DNA from: Zavarzinia marina
GTDB taxonomy: Bacteria; Pseudomonadota; Alphaproteobacteria; Zavarziniales; Zavarziniaceae
NCBI RefSeq assembly: GCF_021568905.1
Contig: NZ_JAKGSB010000004.1
Span: 248,001-312,000, forward strand
Direction of reading: 5' to 3'
Length of the DNA: 64,000 bases
A model generated the notes under the pieces. The model saw only the letters and a list, made by a program, of their open reading frames with translations. It had not been told where the DNA came from and did not search any database. Position numbers and translations under genes: made by a program. Of the stretch, positions 5,371-52,574 are shown in pieces (position 1 is the stretch's first letter; each line of letters opens with the position of its first letter).

Positions 5371-8300
5371 TCAGACCGTCGCGACGGCCCCGATGCCCCG
5401 GCCGAAGACGGCCGAGACCTGATGCACGCGGATGACGACGGCCGAGGGCAGCCAGCCGAAATCCGCCGTCTGCGCCGCCGCGTCATAGTCCGCGAAGGCT
5501 TCGGTCACGGCGATCGTCCGCTTCACCGCCGGCCCGGCGCCGTCGAGGACGTCGATCTCGTAGCGCTCCGCCTCCTCGTTCAGGGCGACGTCGACGCCGT
5601 CGGCCCAGACCCCGCCGAAGCGGGTCCGCCGGATCCAGGCGATGCGCAGGTTGCCGGCACCGTCGCGCCGGCCCGTGACATGGACCGGGGCATAGGGGCG
5701 AAGGCCCCGCCCCTCGGCGGTGAAGACCGTCGTGCCCCAGGCGGGATCGTCCGCCGGCAGCGTTGCGGGGCCGAAACGATAGTCCCGGGCCACCCCCCGT
5801 GCGGACAACGGCAGATCCACCTGGCGCAGCGCGCCGTTCAGCAGGACCACCGGCGCCCCGGCGGCGAGCGGGGCGCGCATGGCATGCTCGGTGCCGAGAC
5901 GGCCGCGCAACAGGCCGCGCAGATCGAAACGGCGGGTGCCGACGGTCGCCGCCTCGGCGAACTGCAGGATTTCCCATTCGCCGTCCGCATTGCCGATCGC
6001 GAGCGCATTGACGTCGCCCGCCAGCAGGTCGTCGCGCGCGCGCCCGGCCAGCACGCCGGTCTGCAGCTCGACGCCGAGCACGTTACCCTCGTCCCAGAAG
6101 TCCGCCGGACCGTCATAGAGCGGATAGGTGGTAACCCCCATGGTGGCGGAGAGCGGCAGCAGGGCGACACGGCCGAAGCCCGCGCCCGTCGCCGTCGCCT
6201 CCACCGCCACGGTCACCGCCGGGCTGGTCGCGGCGGCGGCCCAGGGACGGTGACCGGCATCGTCTTCCGACAGGACGGGCAGGTCGAGCAGGCGAAGGCC
6301 GAGGCCGACCGGCGCCGGCAGGCGGGAGATCGTGGCGGGCCGGCCCTCGGCCAGGACCGGGCCGTGGATCGACGGTTCGACCGCCACCGCCTCTACCGCC
6401 CGCCCCGGCCCGTCGGTGATCCGGCCGAGACGCAGCAGCAGGTCGCCGCCCGGCGTCGAGAGGCGGACCACGTCCCCCGGATCGAGCGCCAGGCGCGAAG
6501 GCGGCAGGGTCAGGCGGGCGCCATCACGGCCGATCCAGGCGGCGGCCAGCAGGCGCTCGGCGGTGCGCCGGGCCTGCCCCTCGTCCATCGCCAGGGGCAG
6601 GCCCATCTGGCTGCGCCCCGCGGCCCCGCCCACCAGGCGGCGGCTGACCGCCGTGCCCTGTCGATAGTCGCGGGCGACATCGGTGAAGGCGATGGCGATT
6701 TCCGCCGGCAGATCCGTCTCCTGGGCGCGGATCAGGGCATAGTCGGCGCCGCTCTCGGCCGCGACCAGATCGTCGGGGGTCAGGCTCGCCACCGCCTCCC
6801 CGCCGCGCGGCAGGAAGCGCAGGCGCCCGCCCACCTCCACCGCGTCGAAGTCGAAGGCGGCCATCAGGGCCTCGATCTCGCCGCGCGGTGCCGCCGGGCG
6901 ATCGCGCAGATAGCCGGTGACGATGCCGGCAAGGCGCGAGACGTCGATCATGCCGTCGCCGAGACCGACCCGGGCGCAGAGGCCGCGCACCAGCCCCGCC
7001 AGATCGCCGCCCGCGACCTTGCCGTTCAGCCAATGGCCGACGGTCCAGAGATCGCAGTCGCCCCAGAGGTCGCTGCGCGCCGGCCAGGCCGGAAACGGCC
7101 GCGCATCCCAGGTCCAGACCGCGATTTCGCCCACCATGCGGCCGCCATAGACGGCGGAGACCGGATTGGTCGCGGCATCCGGCCCGAAATGGTCGAGCCA
7201 GGCGTCGAGCCCGGCGCGCTGCACCAGATCGTCCCGCGTGCCGGCGGAGAAATGGGGCAGCGCGGATTCGGAGGATTTGGGATCGAAGAAGACATTCGGC
7301 TGATTGGTGCCCCGATCGATGCCGGGAATGCCCAGTTCGGTGAACCAGATCGGCTTGCCCTCGGGCACCCAGGCGGTCGGCATCGGGCGTTCCACGCCGC
7401 CGTCGCGTTCGTGGTGAGGGTTGGACCACCAGGACCGGATGTCCTTCGGCCGGAACACCCAGGGCTTGCCGTGCGCACCGTCGGTGATCGGGCTGCGGAT
7501 CTGGCCGGCGCGGTCCGCCTCGCTGGCGTAATACCAATCGTATTGCTCCCCGCCCTCGATCCCGGCGCGCAGATAGGCGGGGTCGTGAGGCCCGGCGAAC
7601 CCCGCCACATGATCGAGATGGCCGGCGCCGTCGCGCCAGTCGGTCAGGGGCAGGTAGTTGTCGATGCCGACGGCGTCGATATTCCCGTCCGCCCACAGGG
7701 GATCCAGGTGATAGCGGATGTCGCCGCTGCCGTCCGCCGGCTGGTGGCCGAAATATTCCGACCAGTCGGCGCCATAGGTGAGCGCCACCCCCGCGCCCAT
7801 GACCGCGCGGCAGTCGGCCGCGATCGCGCGCAGGTGGCCGACGAAGGGATAATCGCCGGACGCATTCCGCAGCGTCGTCAGGCCGCGCAGTTCCGACCCG
7901 ATCAGAAAGGCGTCGACCGCGCCCGGATCGACGGCATTCACCGCCGCCACCAGGCGGGCGTAGTGCAGGATGAAGCGGCGATAGGACCATTCGGCCGGTC
8001 CGCCATAGCCGACCGAGACGGCATTGGTGCCGCCGTCGACCGCGACCGAGACATCGGCCGGTGCGACGGTGCCGGCGAAGGCGTCGACCTGCGCCCCGGC
8101 CCCGGCCGTGCCGTCGTCGCTGCCGGCGTAACCGGGGGCGACGGCGGCGGTGATCCGCCCGCGCCAGGGATGCGCCGCCTGGCCGACACCGGCGCCATGG
8201 TCGCTGTAGGGATCGGGCAGCGCATTGTCCGCCGGAATATCCATGAACAGGAAGGGATAGAGGCCGACGGCATAACCCCTGGCCTTCAGCTCGCGAATGG

Positions 8301-9351
8301 CGCGCACCAGGGATTCATCGGACGGGGTGCCGCCATAGGCATTGTGGCCGTTGGCCGGATTGATCGAGATGACGGGCACGCCCGCGCGGTTCTGGCCGTG
8401 GACCGTCCAGGTCACGGCATTGCGCCCGTCGAATGTGTGCTTCGCCGCGATCTCGGCCCGGGGCCGGATGGTGCAGTGGCCGGCACGCAGATCGTCGCCG
8501 AACCAGCCGACGACGACGAAGACCCGGCGCACCGCCGGCAGGCTGGCGGCGAGATCGTCGAGCGCGGGCATCAGGTCCGCTCTCGCGTCTCCCGCGCTCC
8601 GGTTCTGCGGCGTCTGCGCGCCCTCGGCGCCGCCGGCACTGCCGGCCGTGATCACCCGCGTATCATAGACGAATTCCCCGCCGCCCGGGATCAGGCTGAC
8701 CGCGCCGATCCGATCCTCCAGCCCGATGCCGCCCGGCGGCGGCACCCGGCGGAACACCTCGAAGGTCAGCTGCGGCAGGCGGTTGCCGAATTTTTCCAGC
8801 GCCAGATTTTCGAAGACGACATAGGCGGTGCCGCGATAGGCCGGCACCTGCCCCGTGCCCTCGACGCCTTCGATCAGGGGATCGGGATCCTGTTCGAAGT
8901 CGCCGGGATGGAAGCGCCAGGTGACGCCGGTCAGGTCCAGCGGCTTGCCGTCGGCCCAGACGCGCCACAGCCGGTCCACCGGGCCTTCGCACAAGGCGAC
9001 CGCGAAACTGGCGTAATAGCTGTAGGTGGTGACGGAACTGCCGCCGCCGCTGCCGCCCTTGCCGCCGCCCGAGCTTTCGGTGGTCGGCACCTCGCGGAAG
9101 CGGGTGGCCCAGATGATCTGCCCGGCAAGCCGCGCGCGCCCGGCGAATTCCGGCACCGGCGCGCCTTCGGTCGAACTCTGGACCTGGAGATCCGAAAGGC
9201 GATTGCCTTCGCGATGCACCGTCTCGGAAAAGAGCTGGCGGTCGACATAGGCTCCGACGGCGGTCGCGGCGGCGGTGGCGATCGCCGCCACCCACAGCGA
9301 ACTGGAAGCGGTGAGCGCCGTCGCGGCCGCGGTCAGGACGAGAGTCGCCAT
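5371..9351 (-). CDS. GTA-type baseplate megatron / tail-tip protein (RcGTA g15-like)
   Basis: A 1326-aa protein, close to the size of the RcGTA g15 megatron. After a hydrophobic N-terminus it carries the region that matches phage tail proteins, a GTA TIM-barrel-like domain in the middle (seen around PVISINPANGHNAYGGTPSD, GADWSEYFGH, DPLWADGNIDAVGIDNYLPL, WFTELGIPGIDRGTNQPNVF), and a C-terminal tail-fibre-type domain. The ATG at 9349-9351 is preferred because the longer frame would run into the peptidase gene, whose stop lies 2 bases upstream. In RcGTA this protein closes the baseplate and contacts the cell envelope. Confidence 0.93.
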   Translation of the reverse strand: MATLVLTAAATALTASSSLWVAAIATAAATAVGAYVDRQLFSETVHREGNRLSDLQVQSSTEGAPVPEFAGRARLAGQIIWATRFREVPTTESSGGGKGGSGGGSSVTTYSYYASFAVALCEGPVDRLWRVWADGKPLDLTGVTWRFHPGDFEQDPDPLIEGVEGTGQVPAYRGTAYVVFENLALEKFGNRLPQLTFEVFRRVPPPGGIGLEDRIGAVSLIPGGGEFVYDTRVITAGSAGGAEGAQTPQNRSAGDARADLMPALDDLAASLPAVRRVFVVVGWFGDDLRAGHCTIRPRAEIAAKHTFDGRNAVTWTVHGQNRAGVPVISINPANGHNAYGGTPSDESLVRAIRELKARGYAVGLYPFLFMDIPADNALPDPYSDHGAGVGQAAHPWRGRITAAVAPGYAGSDDGTAGAGAQVDAFAGTVAPADVSVAVDGGTNAVSVGYGGPAEWSYRRFILHYARLVAAVNAVDPGAVDAFLIGSELRGLTTLRNASGDYPFVGHLRAIAADCRAVMGAGVALTYGADWSEYFGHQPADGSGDIRYHLDPLWADGNIDAVGIDNYLPLTDWRDGAGHLDHVAGFAGPHDPAYLRAGIEGGEQYDWYYASEADRAGQIRSPITDGAHGKPWVFRPKDIRSWWSNPHHERDGGVERPMPTAWVPEGKPIWFTELGIPGIDRGTNQPNVFFDPKSSESALPHFSAGTRDDLVQRAGLDAWLDHFGPDAATNPVSAVYGGRMVGEIAVWTWDARPFPAWPARSDLWGDCDLWTVGHWLNGKVAGGDLAGLVRGLCARVGLGDGMIDVSRLAGIVTGYLRDRPAAPRGEIEALMAAFDFDAVEVGGRLRFLPRGGEAVASLTPDDLVAAESGADYALIRAQETDLPAEIAIAFTDVARDYRQGTAVSRRLVGGAAGRSQMGLPLAMDEGQARRTAERLLAAAWIGRDGARLTLPPSRLALDPGDVVRLSTPGGDLLLRLGRITDGPGRAVEAVAVEPSIHGPVLAEGRPATISRLPAPVGLGLRLLDLPVLSEDDAGHRPWAAAATSPAVTVAVEATATGAGFGRVALLPLSATMGVTTYPLYDGPADFWDEGNVLGVELQTGVLAGRARDDLLAGDVNALAIGNADGEWEILQFAEAATVGTRRFDLRGLLRGRLGTEHAMRAPLAAGAPVVLLNGALRQVDLPLSARGVARDYRFGPATLPADDPAWGTTVFTAEGRGLRPYAPVHVTGRRDGAGNLRIAWIRRTRFGGVWADGVDVALNEEAERYEIDVLDGAGPAVKRTIAVTEAFADYDAAAQTADFGWLPSAVVIRVHQVSAVFGRGIGAVATV

Positions 9352-9353
9352 GG

Positions 9354-9794
9354 TCAGTCGGTCCCCGGAAAGCGGAAGGCGAAGCGAAGCCGCGCGCGCC
9401 ACCACGGCACGATCGAAACCTCCGCCACCGGATGCGGGTCATAGGCGTGGATCATCCGCCCCGGTGCCGTCTGGATCGCGCAATGTTTCGCCGGGCTGCG
9501 CGGCGCGAAGGCGAAGAGCAGCACGTCGCCCGCCAGCGCCGCCGTGGGTGCGATCTCGACCAGATGGCGCCGGGCCGCCGCCGCCAGGGTCTCGGCCCGT
9601 CGCGCCTCCGCCCAGTCGGGGGTATAGGGCGGCGGCACCTCGGGCTCCGTGCCGTGGAGATCGCGGTAGACCCCGCGCACGAGACCCAGGCAGTCGCAGC
9701 CGACACCGATCAGGGACGCCTGATGGCGATAGGGCGTGCCGAGCCAGCGCCGGGCCGCCGCGACCACGCGCTCAGACGAGACTGGAGCCGTCAT
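9354..9794 (-). CDS. NlpC/P60 family peptidase (RcGTA g14-like)
   Basis: A 146-aa tail-associated peptidoglycan peptidase. The catalytic cysteine is in GVGCDCLGLVRGVYRDL and the histidine in SPAKHCAIQT, both in NlpC/P60 context; the opening VAAARRWLGTPYRHQAS is also typical. In RcGTA the equivalent protein degrades the wall during DNA delivery. Its start overlaps the hub gene by 23 bases and its stop is 2 bases before the megatron start. Confidence 0.92.
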   Translation of the reverse strand: MTAPVSSERVVAAARRWLGTPYRHQASLIGVGCDCLGLVRGVYRDLHGTEPEVPPPYTPDWAEARRAETLAAAARRHLVEIAPTAALAGDVLLFAFAPRSPAKHCAIQTAPGRMIHAYDPHPVAEVSIVPWWRARLRFAFRFPGTD

Positions 9795-10647
9795 TGCCGT
9801 CTCCCTGGCTTGGATAGGACAGGGCGAAATCCGTGCCGGGCATATGGGGAAAGCCGCCGAAGGCGACGGTATTGGCGAAACGCTCGCGGCAGGTCTCGAA
9901 GCGGCGGTCGCAACCGGCGGTCAACAGGGCCGTATCGCCCGGCGCCGGCGCCATGGGCGGCGGCAGCAGCAAGGTGATGCGCGCGCCGTGCTGGCGGGCG
10001 ATCTCGAAACCCGTGCCGGCATTGGCGCCGCCCGTCCAGGTCAAGGTTCCGAAGGCGAAATCGCCGCCGTCATGCCCATCCAGGCCGTCCATGACCAGGG
10101 TCATCCGGCCCTCGACGGCCATGACCGTCGCGGTCGCGCGGTGGGCGGGCAGCGAGAGGTCGATGCCACAGCGGGCATCGCCGAGGTTCCAGGCACAGCG
10201 GCGCTCGAACAGGCGCCCCGTCACCTGGTCCAGGCGATGGGCAAGGCCGCGCAGCTCGGCGGTGAAACCGCTTCGCCCGCGCGTCACCTGGCCGATATGT
10301 CCCCGGCGCAGCAGGACGCGCTGGGCGACGTCCCGCCAGTTGACCAGATGGATCAGCACCTCGGCATCGTCGTAGCGCCCGGCGGCGAGATCCGCCTCGG
10401 TCACCGCATCGGCCGACAGCGCGCCCTCGACGTCGACGTTGGAAACGGAAAGCCCCGCCACACTCTCGATCGCGGAGGCGGTGAAGCCGCTGTCGGCCCG
10501 ATGGACGACACCGTCGAAGGCAAGATCGCGGTCGTGGTCGGTGAAACCCAGCACGACACCGTCGCGCCGGATCACGCGCAAGCAGCGCGCCAGTGTGGTG
10601 ACGCCGCCGGCCAGATGGGCGGCCAGATCTTCCGGCAGATCCTTCAC
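9772..10647 (-). CDS. DUF2163 baseplate hub protein (RcGTA g13-like)
   Basis: A 291-aa protein of the DUF2163/BR0599 family. It carries the conserved cysteine set RRCAWNLGDARCGIDLSL and CDRRFETCRERFANTVAFGG. In RcGTA the equivalent hub is reported to bind an iron-sulfur cluster through such cysteines, and all four positions are present here. It follows the DUF2460 gene with an ATGA overlap (10644-10647). The tail-hub role comes from family and gene order. Confidence 0.92.
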   Translation of the reverse strand: MKDLPEDLAAHLAGGVTTLARCLRVIRRDGVVLGFTDHDRDLAFDGVVHRADSGFTASAIESVAGLSVSNVDVEGALSADAVTEADLAAGRYDDAEVLIHLVNWRDVAQRVLLRRGHIGQVTRGRSGFTAELRGLAHRLDQVTGRLFERRCAWNLGDARCGIDLSLPAHRATATVMAVEGRMTLVMDGLDGHDGGDFAFGTLTWTGGANAGTGFEIARQHGARITLLLPPPMAPAPGDTALLTAGCDRRFETCRERFANTVAFGGFPHMPGTDFALSYPSQGDGNDGSSLV

Positions 10648-14878: not shown

Positions 14879-14957
14879 CGTCATCCCGGCGCAGGCCGGG
14901 ATCTCGTGCCGAAAAGGGCTTTCTCGTCGGAAGCTCCCGGCCTTCGCCGGGACGACG
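14879..14957. repeat. Intergenic palindromic repeat, copy A
   Basis: Two near-perfect inverted arms of about 23 bases (core TCCCGGCGxAGGCCGGGA and TCCCGGCCTTCGCCGGGA) flank about 33 bases. The same arms occur at 36430-36511 and 49633-49709. This copy lies within the particle operon, between the capsid gene and the next gene, so the transcript must cross a strong hairpin here. Confidence 0.85.
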
Positions 14958-36429: not shown

Positions 36430-36511
36430 CGTCGTCCCGGCGAAGGCCGGGATCTCGCGACGAGAGAGGCGCCCTTTTCTGATGAAGGTCACGGCCTTCG
36501 CCGGGACGACG
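36430..36511. repeat. Intergenic palindromic repeat, copy B
   Basis: Arms GTCGTCCCGGCGAAGGCCGG and its near-perfect complement at 36492-36511 flank about 40 bases that include gcccttttct, the inverse of a segment inside copy A. The element lies between convergent genes and may act as a terminator for both. Confidence 0.85.
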
Positions 36512-46558: not shown

Positions 46559-46658
46559 CGCCGTGCCCTGTTGCGCATGACTACCCTGCGATCCGGGTGG
46601 CTGGACAGGGTGATCGGCTTTCGGCTAGTCAACCTGACAGCTTGATGGGAGGTTGAGC

Positions 46659-48023
46659 ATGTCGGGTGTACAGGCGGCCGGGGCGCCGATCGAGGACCGG
46701 CGCCAACTGGTCGAATGGATGGCCGCCGGCGCCAAGCCCGACAAGGCCGATTGGCGGATCGGCACCGAGCACGAGAAATTCGGCTTCCGGCTCGACGGTC
46801 TCGGCCCCGTTCCCTATGCGGGCGACAACGGCATCCGCGCCATGCTCGAGGGCCTGCGACGCTTCGGCTGGCAGCCGGTGCTGGAAGGCGAGAACATCAT
46901 CGCTCTCGAGATGGACGGCGCCTCCATCAGCCTCGAACCCGGCGGCCAGTTCGAGCTGTCGGGCGCCCCGCTCGAAACCATCCATCAGACCTGCGGCGAG
47001 GTGAACACCCATCTCGAACAGGTGCAGACCGTGGCCCGCGAGCTCGGCCTCGGCTTCATCGGCCTCGGCTTCGCCCCGACCTGGAAGCGCGAGGACGTGC
47101 CGGTCATGCCCAAGGGCCGCTACGACATCATGCGCGCCTATATGCCGAAGAAGGGCAGTCTGGGCCTCGACATGATGCTGCGCACCTCGACGGTGCAGGT
47201 GAACCTCGACTTCGCCTCCGAGGCCGACATGGCGGCCAAGATGCGCGTCGCCCTGGCGCTGCAGCCGGTGGCGACCGCGCTCTTCGCCAATTCGCCCTTC
47301 ACCGAGGGCCGGCCGAACGGCTTCCAGTCCTATCGCGCCCATATCTGGTCCGATACCGATCCCGACCGCACCGGCCTGCTGCCCTTCGTCTTCGAGGACG
47401 GTTTCGGCTTCGAGCGCTATGTCGACTGGGCGCTCGACGTGCCCATGTATTTCGTCTACCGCGACGGGCGCTACATCGACGTCTCGGGCCAGTCGTTCCG
47501 CGCCTTCCTCGATGGAAAGCTGCCGGCGCTGCCGGGCGAGAAACCCCATCTGGGCGACTGGTCGGCCCATCTGACCACCCTGTTCCCCGAAGCCCGGGTG
47601 AAGCGCTACATCGAGATGCGCGGGGCCGACGGCGGGCCGTGGAAGCGGCTCTGCGCCCTGCCCGCGCTCTGGGTCGGCCTGGTCTATTGCGACGAGTCCC
47701 TTGCCGCCTGCCTCGACCTGATCCGCGACTGGACGGCGGAAGAACGCGAGGCCCTTCGCGCCGCCGTGCCGCGCCAGGGCCTCCGCGCGCCGTTCCGGGG
47801 CGGCACCGTCCTCGACATCGCGCGCCGCATGGTCGAGATCGCCGATCAGGGCCTGCGCCGCCGCGCCGCCGGCAACGGCATGGGCGGGGACGAGACCATG
47901 TTCCTCCAGGTCCTGAAGAAGACGGTGGAGACGGGCCAGAGCCCGGCGGACGAGTTGCTCGCCGCCTACGAGGGGCGCTGGCACGGCGACATCACCCGTC
48001 TCTTCGCCGAATACGCCTATTGA
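46659..48023 (+). CDS. gshA: Glutamate--cysteine ligase (class of alphaproteobacteria and plants)
   Basis: A 454-aa enzyme of the first step of glutathione synthesis. Signatures: [60 protein letters not shown], and [14 protein letters not shown]-type [20 protein letters not shown]. These are typical of the plant/alphaproteobacterial GCL family. The ATG at 46659 follows GGGAGG at a good distance; a TTG at 46653 is less likely. Confidence 0.95.
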
Positions 48024-48641: not shown

Positions 48642-49586
48642 TCAGCCGGCCGGTGTCGCAGCGCCGTTCGTCGCCAGCGACCAGCCGCGCGCCGCCGCCA
48701 GACGGCCGAGACCGGCCATCATCGCATCGGCCCGCGCATCGTCCGTCGCCAGCGCGGCGGCGGGCGCCGGGCGGCCGGTGAATTCGACATAGGCGCCGGA
48801 CGGCCGCCCGCCCCAGCCCGACAGCAGATGACCGGCCAGCGCCCGCGCCGATTTTTCCGGTGAACTCACGCCCGGCACCAGCGCCCGCATCGCCGGCAAT
48901 ATGTAATGCCAGGCGAAGCGAACGGGCGCCGGGCGTTCCCGCGCCAGGCCGGTGCCCGGCATCAGGCCCGGATCGAAGGCATGGAACCGCAGGCATTCCC
49001 CTTCGTGCCGGCGCGCCATGGCGTGGGCATAGAGAATGCAGCAGAGTTTCGCGGCGGCGTAGCGGTCGGACCCCTTCGCCATGCCGGAACCCGTGGCCAG
49101 AGCCTCGACCGACGCGAAGGCGCCGCCGCGAAAGCCGAACAGGCGCGCCAGCCGGTTGCGCGGATCATGAGTGCCGCTGCCCAATGTGACCACGGCCGCC
49201 CCCGGTGCCAGGGCCGGCATCAGCAGACCGACCAGCAGCACATGGCCGAAGACGTTGGCGGCAAAGGTCTCGTCCATGCCGTCCGGCGTCAGCACCGGTG
49301 CGCCCGGCACCTGAAGCCCGGCATTGCAGACCAGGGCATCGATTCCCGATGCCGCGCCCGGCAACGTCCGCACCGCCCCGGCGAAAGCCGCCACCGAGGC
49401 GGGATCGAGCAGGTCGAGAGGCAGCACGGCCAATCGTCCCAGCGGCACCCGCGCCCGCAGCGCATCGGCCGCCTCGGGCCGCCGCGCCCCGGCGACGACC
49501 AAAGCACCGCCCTCCGCCAGCGCCGACGCCAGAAACAGCCCCATGCCCGAGGTCGCCCCCGTGACGACATGAACCGGACGCCCCAT
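48642..49586 (-). CDS. SDR family oxidoreductase (retinol dehydrogenase-like)
   Basis: A 314-aa short-chain dehydrogenase. HVVTGATSGMGLFLASALAE is the Rossmann motif, LVCNAGLQVPGAP the NAG segment and SDRYAAAKLCCILYAHAMAR the YxxxK pair. The length and pattern resemble protochlorophyllide/retinol-type SDRs. The ATG at 49584-49586 has a GGGGAGG site that is locked in a perfect hairpin (49595-49616). Substrate unknown. Confidence 0.9.
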   Translation of the reverse strand: MGRPVHVVTGATSGMGLFLASALAEGGALVVAGARRPEAADALRARVPLGRLAVLPLDLLDPASVAAFAGAVRTLPGAASGIDALVCNAGLQVPGAPVLTPDGMDETFAANVFGHVLLVGLLMPALAPGAAVVTLGSGTHDPRNRLARLFGFRGGAFASVEALATGSGMAKGSDRYAAAKLCCILYAHAMARRHEGECLRFHAFDPGLMPGTGLARERPAPVRFAWHYILPAMRALVPGVSSPEKSARALAGHLLSGWGGRPSGAYVEFTGRPAPAAALATDDARADAMMAGLGRLAAARGWSLATNGAATPAG

Positions 49587-49594
49587 CGCCGTGC

Positions 49595-49616
49595 CTCCCC
49601 GTCGTTCGACGGGGAG
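49595..49616 (-). promoter_or_regulatory. Hairpin sequestering the SDR ribosome-binding site
   Basis: In the mRNA, CTCCCCGTCG-AA-CGACGGGGAG forms a perfect 10-bp stem. Its 3' arm holds the GGGGAG part of the Shine-Dalgarno, 8 bases before the ATG. Translation would be hindered unless the hairpin is opened. Confidence 0.55.
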
Positions 49617-49632
49617 ATCATAGCAAATGCGC

Positions 49633-49709
49633 CTTCCCGGCGAAGACCGCGATCTTTCGACGGGAAGACGCCCATCCGACGAAACGCCCCGGCCTTCGCC
49701 GGGGCGACG
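49633..49709. repeat. Intergenic palindromic repeat, copy C (degenerate)
   Basis: A diverged copy of the element at 14879 and 36430: left arm CTTCCCGGCGAAGACCGCGA, right arm CCCGGCCTTCGCCGGGGCGA, with about 37 bases between. It lies between two leftward genes. Confidence 0.75.
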
Positions 49710-49725
49710 CCCCGAAAGGAGGCCG

Positions 49726-50205
49726 TCAGCGCCCGCCGAAGGCGGAGCGCGCGAACATGGCGGCGGCGACGATGGTGATGAAGGCCGCGACGGCGGCGGG
49801 AATGAAGGCGACCGCGCCCGCCCAATTGCCGGCGCCCGCCGCATTGTCCCAGGGCGAGAGGCCGCGATTGGCCGCGAAATTGGCGAACAGATAGAAGACC
49901 GTATTGGCCCAGACCGCGAAGGCGAGGATGCCGCAGATCACCTTGCGCCGCCCCTCGGTCGCCACCACCCGGTCGATCACGGCGGCGACGGCCAGCGCCA
50001 TGATGCCGTTCAGCAGGCTGCCCACATGCATGGCGCGCCAGCCGCGCTCGGTGCCCGGAAAATCGAACCGCGCGCTCGGCAGGGGATCCAGGATGAAGCC
50101 GCCGAGGGCGACGAAGCCGATCGCGAAACCGGCCAGCAGGCCGGCGATCAGGACCAGGGCACCATGGCCGGCGAGGCGGCGCGCCTCGGGTGAAAGGGCG
50201 TTCAT
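49726..50205 (-). CDS. Styrene-oxide-isomerase-like membrane protein (StyC family)
   Basis: A 159-aa protein with four hydrophobic helices. Its blocks align with styrene oxide isomerase: AGHGALVLIAGLLAG, LGGFILDPLP, FPGTERGWRAMHVGSLLNGI, and WANTVFYLFANFAANRGL. The heme-ligand histidine (H60 here), the nearby asparagine (N66) and the tyrosine (Y105) that act in the StyC enzyme are all kept. StyC rearranges epoxides to aldehydes. No styrene monooxygenase genes are visible, so its real substrate is open. GGAGGAGA precedes the ATG. Confidence 0.82.
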   Translation of the reverse strand: MNALSPEARRLAGHGALVLIAGLLAGFAIGFVALGGFILDPLPSARFDFPGTERGWRAMHVGSLLNGIMALAVAAVIDRVVATEGRRKVICGILAFAVWANTVFYLFANFAANRGLSPWDNAAGAGNWAGAVAFIPAAVAAFITIVAAAMFARSAFGGR

Positions 50206-50734: not shown

Positions 50735-52174
50735 TCAGGCCGCCGTGCCGCCCACCGTCAGGCCGTCGATCAGAAGGCTGGGCTGGCCGACGCCGACGGG
50801 CACGCCCTGGCCGGACTTGCCGCAGGTGCCGATGCCGGGATCGAGTTCCAGGTCGTTGGCGATGGCGCGCACCTGGGTCAGGCAGTCCGGGCCGTTGCCG
50901 ATCAGGGTGGCGCCCTTGACCGCTGGCCCGATCCTGCCGTTCTCGATCAGATAGGCCTCGGTGCAGGAGAAGACGAATTTGCCGGACGTGATGTCGACCT
51001 GGCCGCCGCCGAAGTTGACGGCATAGAGCCCCTTCGGCACCGAGGCGATGATCTCTTCCCGCGTGGCGTCGCCGCCCAGCATGATGGTGTTGGTCATGCG
51101 CGGCATGGGCATATGGGCATAGGACTGGCGCCTGCCGTTGCCGGTCGGCTTCATGCCCATCAGCCGGGCGTTCAGGCGATCCTGGAGATAGCCGACCAGG
51201 ATGCCGTCCTCGATCAGGGTGGTGCGGTTGGTCGGCGTGCCCTCGTCGTCCACGGTCAGGGAGCCGCGGCGCCCGGCGATGGTGCCGTCGTCGACCACGG
51301 TCACGCCCCTGGCCGCCACCTGCTTGCCCATCAGGCCGGCGAAGGCGGAAGTCTTCTTGCGATTGAAGTCGCCTTCGAGGCCGTGGCCGATCGCTTCGTG
51401 CAGGAGGATGCCGGGCCAGCCGGCGCCCAGCACCACGGGCATTTCGCCCGCCGGGGCGGCGACGGCGTCGATGTTCACCAGGGCCTGGCGCAGCGCCTCG
51501 TCGACCGCCGGCTGCCAATGGCCGGGGTCCATGTATTTGGTGTAGAAGCCGCGCTCGCCCGCGCCGTAGGACCCGCTCTCCTGTTTGTCGCCGTCCTGCA
51601 CGACGACCGAGACGTTGAGCCGGACCAGGGGCCGGACGTCACGCACCCGAAGCCCGGAGGCGCGCACGATCTCCACCACCTGCCACGACCCGGACAAGGA
51701 GGCCGAGACCTGGCGCACCCGGGGATCCTTCGCCCTGGCATAGGCGTCGATCTCGGCCAGAAGCCTGGTCTTCGCCTCGAACGGCACCTCGGACAGGGGA
51801 TTGTCCTCGACATAGAGCTTGGCATTGGTGCCCGGCGGCGGTGCCGCCATGACGCCGCCATGGCCCGACGAAACCGCGCGGACGGTGCGCGCGGCACGCT
51901 CGATCGCCTCTTCCGACAGTTCGGCGGCATGGGCATAGCCCGTCGACTCGCCGGCGACAGACCGCAGGCCGAAGCCCTGCCCGGTATCGAAGGTGGCGGC
52001 CTTCAGGCGGCCGTCGTCGAAGGCGAAGGACTCGGACTGGGAATATTCGAGGAAGAGTTCACCGTCGTCCGCGCCCTGGAGGGCATCGTCCACCAGCCGC
52101 TCGACGCGGGCGGAATCGAGTCCGGCGCGTTCGAAGAACAGGGCATCGGGGACGAGACGGTCGGAATCGGACAT
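50735..52174 (-). CDS. tldD: Metalloprotease TldD
   Basis: A 479-aa subunit of the TldD/TldE peptidase, which trims small modified peptides and affects gyrase inhibitors. The zinc motif is GILLHEAIGHGLEGDFNRKK; SAFAGLMGKQVAARGVTVVD and PRMTNTIMLGGDATREEIIA are other TldD landmarks. The TldE/PmbA partner is not in the window. The gene is divergent from the cytochrome oxidase operon, as in many alphaproteobacteria. Confidence 0.96.
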   Translation of the reverse strand: MSDSDRLVPDALFFERAGLDSARVERLVDDALQGADDGELFLEYSQSESFAFDDGRLKAATFDTGQGFGLRSVAGESTGYAHAAELSEEAIERAARTVRAVSSGHGGVMAAPPPGTNAKLYVEDNPLSEVPFEAKTRLLAEIDAYARAKDPRVRQVSASLSGSWQVVEIVRASGLRVRDVRPLVRLNVSVVVQDGDKQESGSYGAGERGFYTKYMDPGHWQPAVDEALRQALVNIDAVAAPAGEMPVVLGAGWPGILLHEAIGHGLEGDFNRKKTSAFAGLMGKQVAARGVTVVDDGTIAGRRGSLTVDDEGTPTNRTTLIEDGILVGYLQDRLNARLMGMKPTGNGRRQSYAHMPMPRMTNTIMLGGDATREEIIASVPKGLYAVNFGGGQVDITSGKFVFSCTEAYLIENGRIGPAVKGATLIGNGPDCLTQVRAIANDLELDPGIGTCGKSGQGVPVGVGQPSLLIDGLTVGGTAA

Positions 52175-52574
52175 GAAAGAGGCTCCTTCGCGCTGCGTCC
52201 CGTTAATATGGGGGCGCGATCGGCATTCGTCACCGCCCCCGTGCTTGGCGGGCGTCACGGAATCGACATCCCGCATCGTTGCCCGCGCTAATTGACGAAC
52301 ATCAATTGTGGTTTGCGGCATAACGTCGCAAGAATGCGCGCGCCCATGGCCTTGGAGCCTTGGACAATATAGGTCCGCTGTCGCAAAATCTGTGTCGGCA
52401 AAGTCGCCGGTGATAGGCTCAACCTGTTATTCGGGCTGGCGATCCGGCCTGATCGAATGTACGAGTCCGGTCAGGCCGGAAGGTTTCCGCCGGACGGCGC
52501 GCGATATCTGAGGGGTGGTCGGGGTGCATCACTGTGTCTCGGCCAGGCTTAGCAAGCGGGAGTTGAATCGACCC
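52175..52574. other. Divergent regulatory region (400 bases), tldD / ctaC
   Basis: I see no gene here. An FNR/FixK-type box lies at 52292-52305. The segment 52340-52560 has no other recognisable motif. A GTG at 52515 could extend ctaC by 20 residues but gives a poorer signal sequence. Confidence 0.6.
52292..52305. promoter_or_regulatory. FNR/FixK-type box (anaerobox)
   Basis: TTGAC-GAAC-ATCAA matches TTGAT-N4-ATCAA at nine of ten positions and sits in a wider dyad AATTGA-N6-TCAATT. Located about 120 bases before tldD and 270 bases before ctaC, so either promoter could be the target. Confidence 0.65.

Follow-up and report, generated by a model that had tools for sequence, protein, structure and literature searches.

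The gene under study lies in a stretch of DNA of 64 kb, which is here called the window. The gene encodes a protein related to styrene oxide isomerase (SOI), and the features around it are as follows.

46653..48023, plus strand: glutamate-cysteine ligase gene, the conserved flank on the side opposite to tldD
48642..49586, minus strand: gene for an SDR family oxidoreductase of 314 aa, a neighbour in the window's genome only
49587..49728, no strand: strong hairpin block between the SOI-like and SDR genes (z -4.9)
49726..50205, minus strand: SOI-like gene, ATG at 50205, 159 aa
50298..50711, minus strand: 137-aa open reading frame without a family match (E <= 0.01), in the place of a divergent 315-aa gene of three relatives
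50735..52177, minus strand: tldD metalloprotease gene, the other conserved flank (start chosen in this analysis)

The SDR gene and tldD are thus the neighbours, as the first-pass annotation had stated. Upstream of the ATG there is a GCGGAGGA ribosome-binding site, which is also present before the orthologs in L031, L032 and L034; of the four orthologs checked, only that in L033 has no such site before its start. The orthologs in four other Zavarzinia genomes are 72-74% identical, and dN/dS was 0.11-0.43 in all ten pairwise comparisons among the five Zavarzinia sequences. This indicates purifying selection, and the open reading frame is therefore a real, constrained gene. Membrane helices are predicted at residues 6-33, 53-80, 84-108 and 128-156, in line with four membrane-like regions in the hydropathy profile, and the AlphaFold2 model also gives a predicted fold of four long helices (mean pLDDT 82.2). 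Pfam contains no family for the protein, the best match being DUF996 below the cut-off (E 0.32).

Of six Zavarzinia genomes, five carry the gene, and the one in which it was not found (G002) is 74% complete. The place is the same in all five: the glutamate-cysteine ligase gene stands on one side and tldD on the other, followed by cox genes (gcl - SOI - tldD - cox). No match to PF10118, to a monooxygenase or to an aldehyde dehydrogenase was found within 9 kb of the window gene. The flanks available on the two sides are 49.7 and 13.8 kb, so a linked partner is truly absent and not missing because of a short contig. Three of the relatives carry a conserved gene of about 315 aa head to head with the SOI-like gene (L031 9241-10188, L032 about 9396-10346, L034 8099-9055), which is absent near the SOI-like gene in the window and in L033. 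This divergent gene was considered as a regulator. It is not recognisable as one, having no Pfam match in L031 and L034 and no NCBIfam match in L034, the proteins scanned.

A phmmer search against the PDB chain sequences (E up to 1) gave two matches, 8pnu (E 7.5e-21) and 30tw (E 8.2e-18), both of which are styrene oxide isomerases. With the model as query in Foldseek, 8pnu was the sole match at E <= 0.001 (E 6.1e-5, TM 0.60, 31% identity). The rmsd between the monomer model and 8pnu is about 10 Å, and the subunit packing is therefore not reproduced by the model. A second structural comparison placed 8pnu first with Z 10.6 (rmsd 9.4, 119 residues) and unrelated helical bundles next with Z 9.6; the kinship with SOI accordingly rests on the amino acid sequence and not on the structural Z. 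The protein had been called styrene-oxide-isomerase-like, and it is a clear relative of SOI. Membership of an unrelated membrane family, which would have spoken against that description, was examined, and the PDB sequence matches, the phylogenetic tree and Foldseek all point to SOI instead.

Like StyC (NF045734; 8pnu/8pnv, 30tw), to which it is homologous over nearly its whole length, the window protein has four predicted membrane helices. Unlike StyC, it falls below the curated cut-off of the NCBIfam model NF045734 (109.3 bits vs 150), has Ala at D95 and Gly at T20, belongs to a separate clade and comes from a genome without StyA. In the tree of 74 rows, from which the L088 protein (116 aa) was left out, the window protein groups with its four orthologs in a clade confined to Zavarzinia (support 100/100), on a stem of 1.05 changes per column. 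The StyC clade is separate (17 rows, 100/97) and includes four Zavarzinia proteins from styrene clusters. Forcing the window clade together with StyC cost 30.07 log units and was rejected (p-AU 0.0149, for a constrained grouping chosen after the tree had been seen). The phylogeny against StyC that had been proposed as a check thus gives a clade of its own outside StyC; its placement among the other non-StyC lines is tentative (91/73). That the window protein is StyC itself is ruled out by the score, by the clade and by the genome without StyA. A search of plasmids found seven matches, none of which covered more than 46% of the query; five are annotated as StyC, one is a hypothetical protein clustered with styA and one is unannotated.

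The residues of StyC that matter for heme and epoxide have the following counterparts in the alignment, their roles being those given in PMC11374702 and, for the last, PMC12502698.

50026..50028, minus strand: codon of H60, counterpart of the heme ligand H58 of StyC
50008..50010, minus strand: codon of N66, counterpart of N64
49903..49905, minus strand: codon of N101, counterpart of N99 (N99A inactive)
49891..49893, minus strand: codon of Y105, counterpart of Y103 (Y103A inactive)
49864..49866, minus strand: codon of R114, counterpart of R112, which is R111 of the Rhodococcus enzyme

The spacing is that of StyC, with six residues from His to Asn and 45 from His to Tyr (H58/N64/Y103 to H60/N66/Y105), so that the observation of the three residues in the first-pass annotation holds. 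In StyC, H58 binds the heme while Y103 and N64 position the epoxide, and N99A and Y103A of the Pseudomonas enzyme are inactive while N64A and D95A are impaired (PMC11374702). For the Rhodococcus enzyme, H57 is described as the axial heme ligand, and R111 probably meets a heme propionate (PMC12502698). H58, N64, N99, Y103 and R112 are kept in all five proteins of the window clade. The 29-row superfamily alignment, for which 28 of the 38 related loci were used, has 13 invariant columns, H60, N66, N101 and Y105 among them, and in the 75-row alignment the H58 position is His in 75/75, N64 is Asn in 74/75, and N99 and Y103 are each kept in 67/75.

At D95 of StyC the window protein has Ala, and at T20 it has Gly. 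The 13 StyC-clade rows that are not from Zavarzinia all have Asp at position 95, and none of the 62 other rows does; the four Zavarzinia styrene-cluster proteins also have Ala. According to PMC12502698, RoSOI1 with D94A, which matches D95A, is still active in whole cells. Since this variant is active and the Zavarzinia styrene-cluster proteins have the same residue, Ala at this position does not exclude activity. The window protein resembles these styrene-cluster StyC proteins in genus and in Ala95, but they stand beside styA and styB, have a longer N-terminus and are part of the StyC clade. The N1-32 truncation of Z. compransoris ZcSOI in the same paper of 2025 stops where the G003 protein has its second ATG (32 codons in), and judging from the truncation points ZcSOI is probably of the Zavarzinia styrene-cluster type.

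The homology with SOI, the conserved residues, the purifying selection, the constant place of the gene and the relatives suggest that the window protein is most likely a stand-alone heme-b epoxide isomerase. We put a probability of about 0.6 on the reading that it is a heme-b membrane isomerase of the SOI superfamily which rearranges an epoxide other than that of styrene to an aldehyde or ketone (Meinwald rearrangement). Heme-based isomerisation of this kind reportedly received its structural explanation in 2024. By analogy with StyC we infer heme binding, a trimer, catalysis and the kind of substrate: ferric heme b would lie between the subunits, held by H60 and R114, and Fe(III) would act as a Lewis acid on the epoxide oxygen. 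This oxygen would be positioned by a hydrogen-bond network of Y105 and N66/N101, and a hydride shift would then give the carbonyl product. Judging from the relatives, the epoxide would be made by an oxygenase other than StyAB. Against an isomerase stand the locus without a partner gene, the changes of D95 to Ala and T20 to Gly, the rmsd of about 10 Å and the nearly equal Z of unrelated helical bundles.

The absence of styAB and styD had been noted, and it was confirmed: StyA, StyB and StyD queries gave no match in the 64-kb window at E <= 1e-6, and StyA gave none in the window's genome, which is 100% complete, at E <= 1e-3. Because the protein forms its own clade outside StyC and the genome has no StyA, a substrate other than styrene oxide is indicated. 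Close StyA genes (63-67% identity) are found in G001-G004, clustered with styB and a StyC; G002, G003 and G005 also have matches of about 30%. The window type coexists with a styrene-cluster StyC in G001, G003 and G004 and is therefore not a displaced StyC, and in the window's genome none of the isomerase-like genes is of the styrene-cluster type.

It is improbable that the protein works as a styrene oxide isomerase, whether retained when styAB was lost or using styrene oxide from another monooxygenase of the genome. The residues that matter for styrene oxide are kept, soluble diiron monooxygenase genes lie beside the second SOI-like gene of the genome, and SOI is described as tolerating many ring-substituted styrene oxides (PMC5874493). 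This is outweighed by the score below the StyC cut-off, by the separate clade with its rejected joining, and by the occurrence of the window type beside a styrene-cluster StyC in three genomes.

A heme-binding membrane protein without isomerase activity, serving for example in heme handling or in respiration near cytochrome oxidase, is similarly unlikely. In all five loci coxA lies 3.2-4.0 kb from the SOI-like gene; however, tldD stands in between and the cox genes run the opposite way. Another branch of the superfamily has kept the His and lost Tyr103 (8/75 rows), so roles other than isomerisation may exist, but N64, N99 and Y103, residues that position the epoxide and are not required just to hold heme, are all kept in the window clade. 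The branch in question is a deep clade (L030, L044, L045, L049, L050, L051, L125, L126), several members of which stand beside PF10118; with Tyr103 lost, its chemistry cannot be that of StyC unchanged.

The SDR gene is on the same strand as the SOI-like gene, 139 bp apart, and had been proposed to act on the aldehyde. None of the four other Zavarzinia loci has it at this place, and the best matches elsewhere in the genus (E <= 1e-15) have 57% identity in G001, in a frame with one internal TGA, and 37-47% in the others. The hairpin block between the two genes (49587-49728) has a predicted folding energy of -85.4 kcal/mol vs a shuffled mean of -64.9 (z -4.9), which speaks against a shared operon. 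Because the SDR is found at this place in the window's genome only and the hairpin block lies between, the window gene is most simply a single-gene unit. Two near copies of the core palindrome of the block occur in the window, at 14935-14952 and 36435-36452 (0.07 expected), and this GC-rich block may be a dispersed repeat. At L117 7882-9173 a further SOI-like gene that stands alone is flanked by an SDR gene and, on its other side, a pirin gene. That the SOI-like protein and the SDR work as a pair, with the SDR reducing the aldehyde, is very improbable in spite of the adjacency on one strand and the SDR in L117, as the SDR is missing from four loci, hairpins separate the genes and the L117 SDR is just 26% identical to that of the window. 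The earlier suggestion was an isomerase for another substrate, possibly paired with this SDR. A heme-type isomerase distinct from StyC, probably acting on another substrate, is supported by the residues, the separate clade and the genome without StyA; the pairing is not supported.

The gene was also correctly placed outside a styrene operon, with the addition that the genome holds two further SOI-like genes and that relatives are often linked to other oxygenases. The first of these genes (L029, on contig C13) comes after a YCF48-MMPL-DUF1329 cluster and precedes genes for an aldehyde dehydrogenase, a MobR-like sigma-54 regulator (match under its cut-off), a soluble diiron monooxygenase and a Rieske ferredoxin. 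The C13 cluster (L029, L127, L128; about 308-344 kb of the contig) also has a PF10118 gene with an acyl-CoA-ligase-like gene upstream. The second (C14, L030) is preceded at 104 bp by a PF10118 gene and is without Tyr103. A further type in G001-G004 (L042, L038, L043, L041) has 0.1 kb away the gene for an FA_desaturase-family membrane oxygenase, which we read as AlkB-like, NCBIfam giving no match; an aldehyde dehydrogenase gene is 1.5 kb away in all four loci, and a ferredoxin-type reductase is present in the three loci on longer contigs. These loci possibly encode a route of alkene epoxidation, isomerisation and oxidation.

Relatives outside StyC thus stand beside other oxygenases and aldehyde dehydrogenases. 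The window protein is like these oxygenase- or PF10118-linked proteins in belonging to the same superfamily outside StyC, and most of them keep His58 and Tyr103, but they differ in having a gene for an oxygenase or PF10118 close by, whereas no such gene lies within 9 kb of the window gene. SOI-like genes without PF10118 or the tested oxygenases nearby are also found in other lines (e.g. L117, L122, L123), and because such lone genes occur there too, a general role in epoxide handling is possible. In L075, a MAG of Mycobacteriaceae, genes for a soluble diiron monooxygenase and Rieske proteins lie at a distance of 0.8-2.6 kb from a StyC-clade isomerase with Asp95 (10010-10474). No StyA or StyB match was found at this locus, which we read as another epoxidase in place of StyAB. 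SOI-like genes are rare, and the samples differ: a match was found in 19/385 genomes of the class sample and, in a 398-genome 'phylum' sample, in the window's own genome only, the 20 other genomes shown being all of the same class.

PF10118, presently named a predicted metal-dependent hydrolase, is a recurrent link of this kind, although the 64-kb window itself has no PF10118 gene. With a profile built from 22 PF10118 proteins, a PF10118 gene is found within 300 bp of 30/72 isomerase-like genes, and of 30/55 outside the StyC and window clades. By group the counts are 0/12 for the StyC clade, 0/5 for the window clade, 0/5 for the AlkB-linked type together with G059, 0/2 for the Zavarzinia C13 type, 7/12 for the deep clade without Tyr103 and 23/36 for the rest. 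All are lower bounds, L067, L077, L088, L116 and L125 having a short flank on one or both sides. Second copies of counted loci (L056, L057, L085, L089, L076), L078 with a protein identical to that of L079, and the plasmid records L052-L055 were not included, and in L066, L081 and L086 the second SOI-like gene was assigned to the deep clade by its low profile score and not by the tree. Linked examples are L058-L065, L068, L070-L072, L074, L077, L086, L088, L115, L118-L121 and L124, and further L030, L044, L045, L048 and L049. L049 has two tandem SOI-like genes directly after its PF10118 gene (7678-8685). The pairs are on one strand and 5-48 bp apart in some lineages (L063, L064, L072, L077) and divergent in others (L058-L060), and the pairing is therefore not one frozen arrangement.

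The association also holds at the level of genomes. PF10118 was above its cut-off in 34 of the 385 genomes of the class samples, and it was present in 15/19 genomes with an isomerase-like gene (E <= 1e-8) vs 19/366 without (Fisher p 1.7e-14, related genomes being treated as independent; 1.2e-11 with Zavarzinia counted once).

PF10118 proteins keep E45, E75xxH78, E127 and E163xxH166 (22 rows, taken from 24 proteins found), which we take to be the pattern of diiron ferritin-like enzymes. The model of the protein (pLDDT 84.5) gave no Foldseek match at E <= 0.001, the best having E 0.052. In VIA-align it resembles ribonucleotide reductase R2, CmlI, AurF and methane monooxygenase (Z 10.8-12.0), the best match (Z 12.0, rmsd 4.3, 220 residues) being under the value of about 13 where, according to the tool, helical bundles stand out. 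Judging from their titles, all 50 of the VIA-align rows listed are presumably dimetal ferritin-like proteins. Taken alone the fold evidence is weak; it is chiefly the invariant residues and these 50 rows that support the diiron reading. PF10118 is a candidate new epoxidase. The linkage speaks for the family and not directly for the window gene, which has no such neighbour.

The SOI enzymes described in PMC11374702, PMC12502698 and PMC5874493 come from styrene breakdown. Searches of open-licence PMC papers, at the level of titles and beginnings of abstracts, showed no SOI outside styrene breakdown and no link of PF10118 with SOI; they gave nothing on COG3687, and for PF10118 only an unrelated title. 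As a tentative and rather doubtful joint reading, heme epoxide isomerases would not have arisen for styrene. PF10118, as a diiron oxygenase that makes the epoxide, would be their common and perhaps older partner, with StyAB, AlkB-like and soluble diiron monooxygenases as later replacements. The window gene would then be a descendant without a linked partner, a core gene of Zavarzinia acting in trans on an epoxide from one of the nine PF10118 proteins of its genome or from the soluble diiron monooxygenases.

Across the genus the gene represents a variant of an enzyme type already known; of more interest is the wider pairing with oxygenases and PF10118. That a conserved clade has all the catalytic residues, in a genome lacking StyA, implies that the chemistry probably serves other epoxides and offers new enzyme scaffolds. 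The links to PF10118, AlkB-like and soluble diiron monooxygenases indicate that the SOI fold probably serves several epoxide pathways, and the recurrent pairing with PF10118 provides a testable function for a family with a guessed name.
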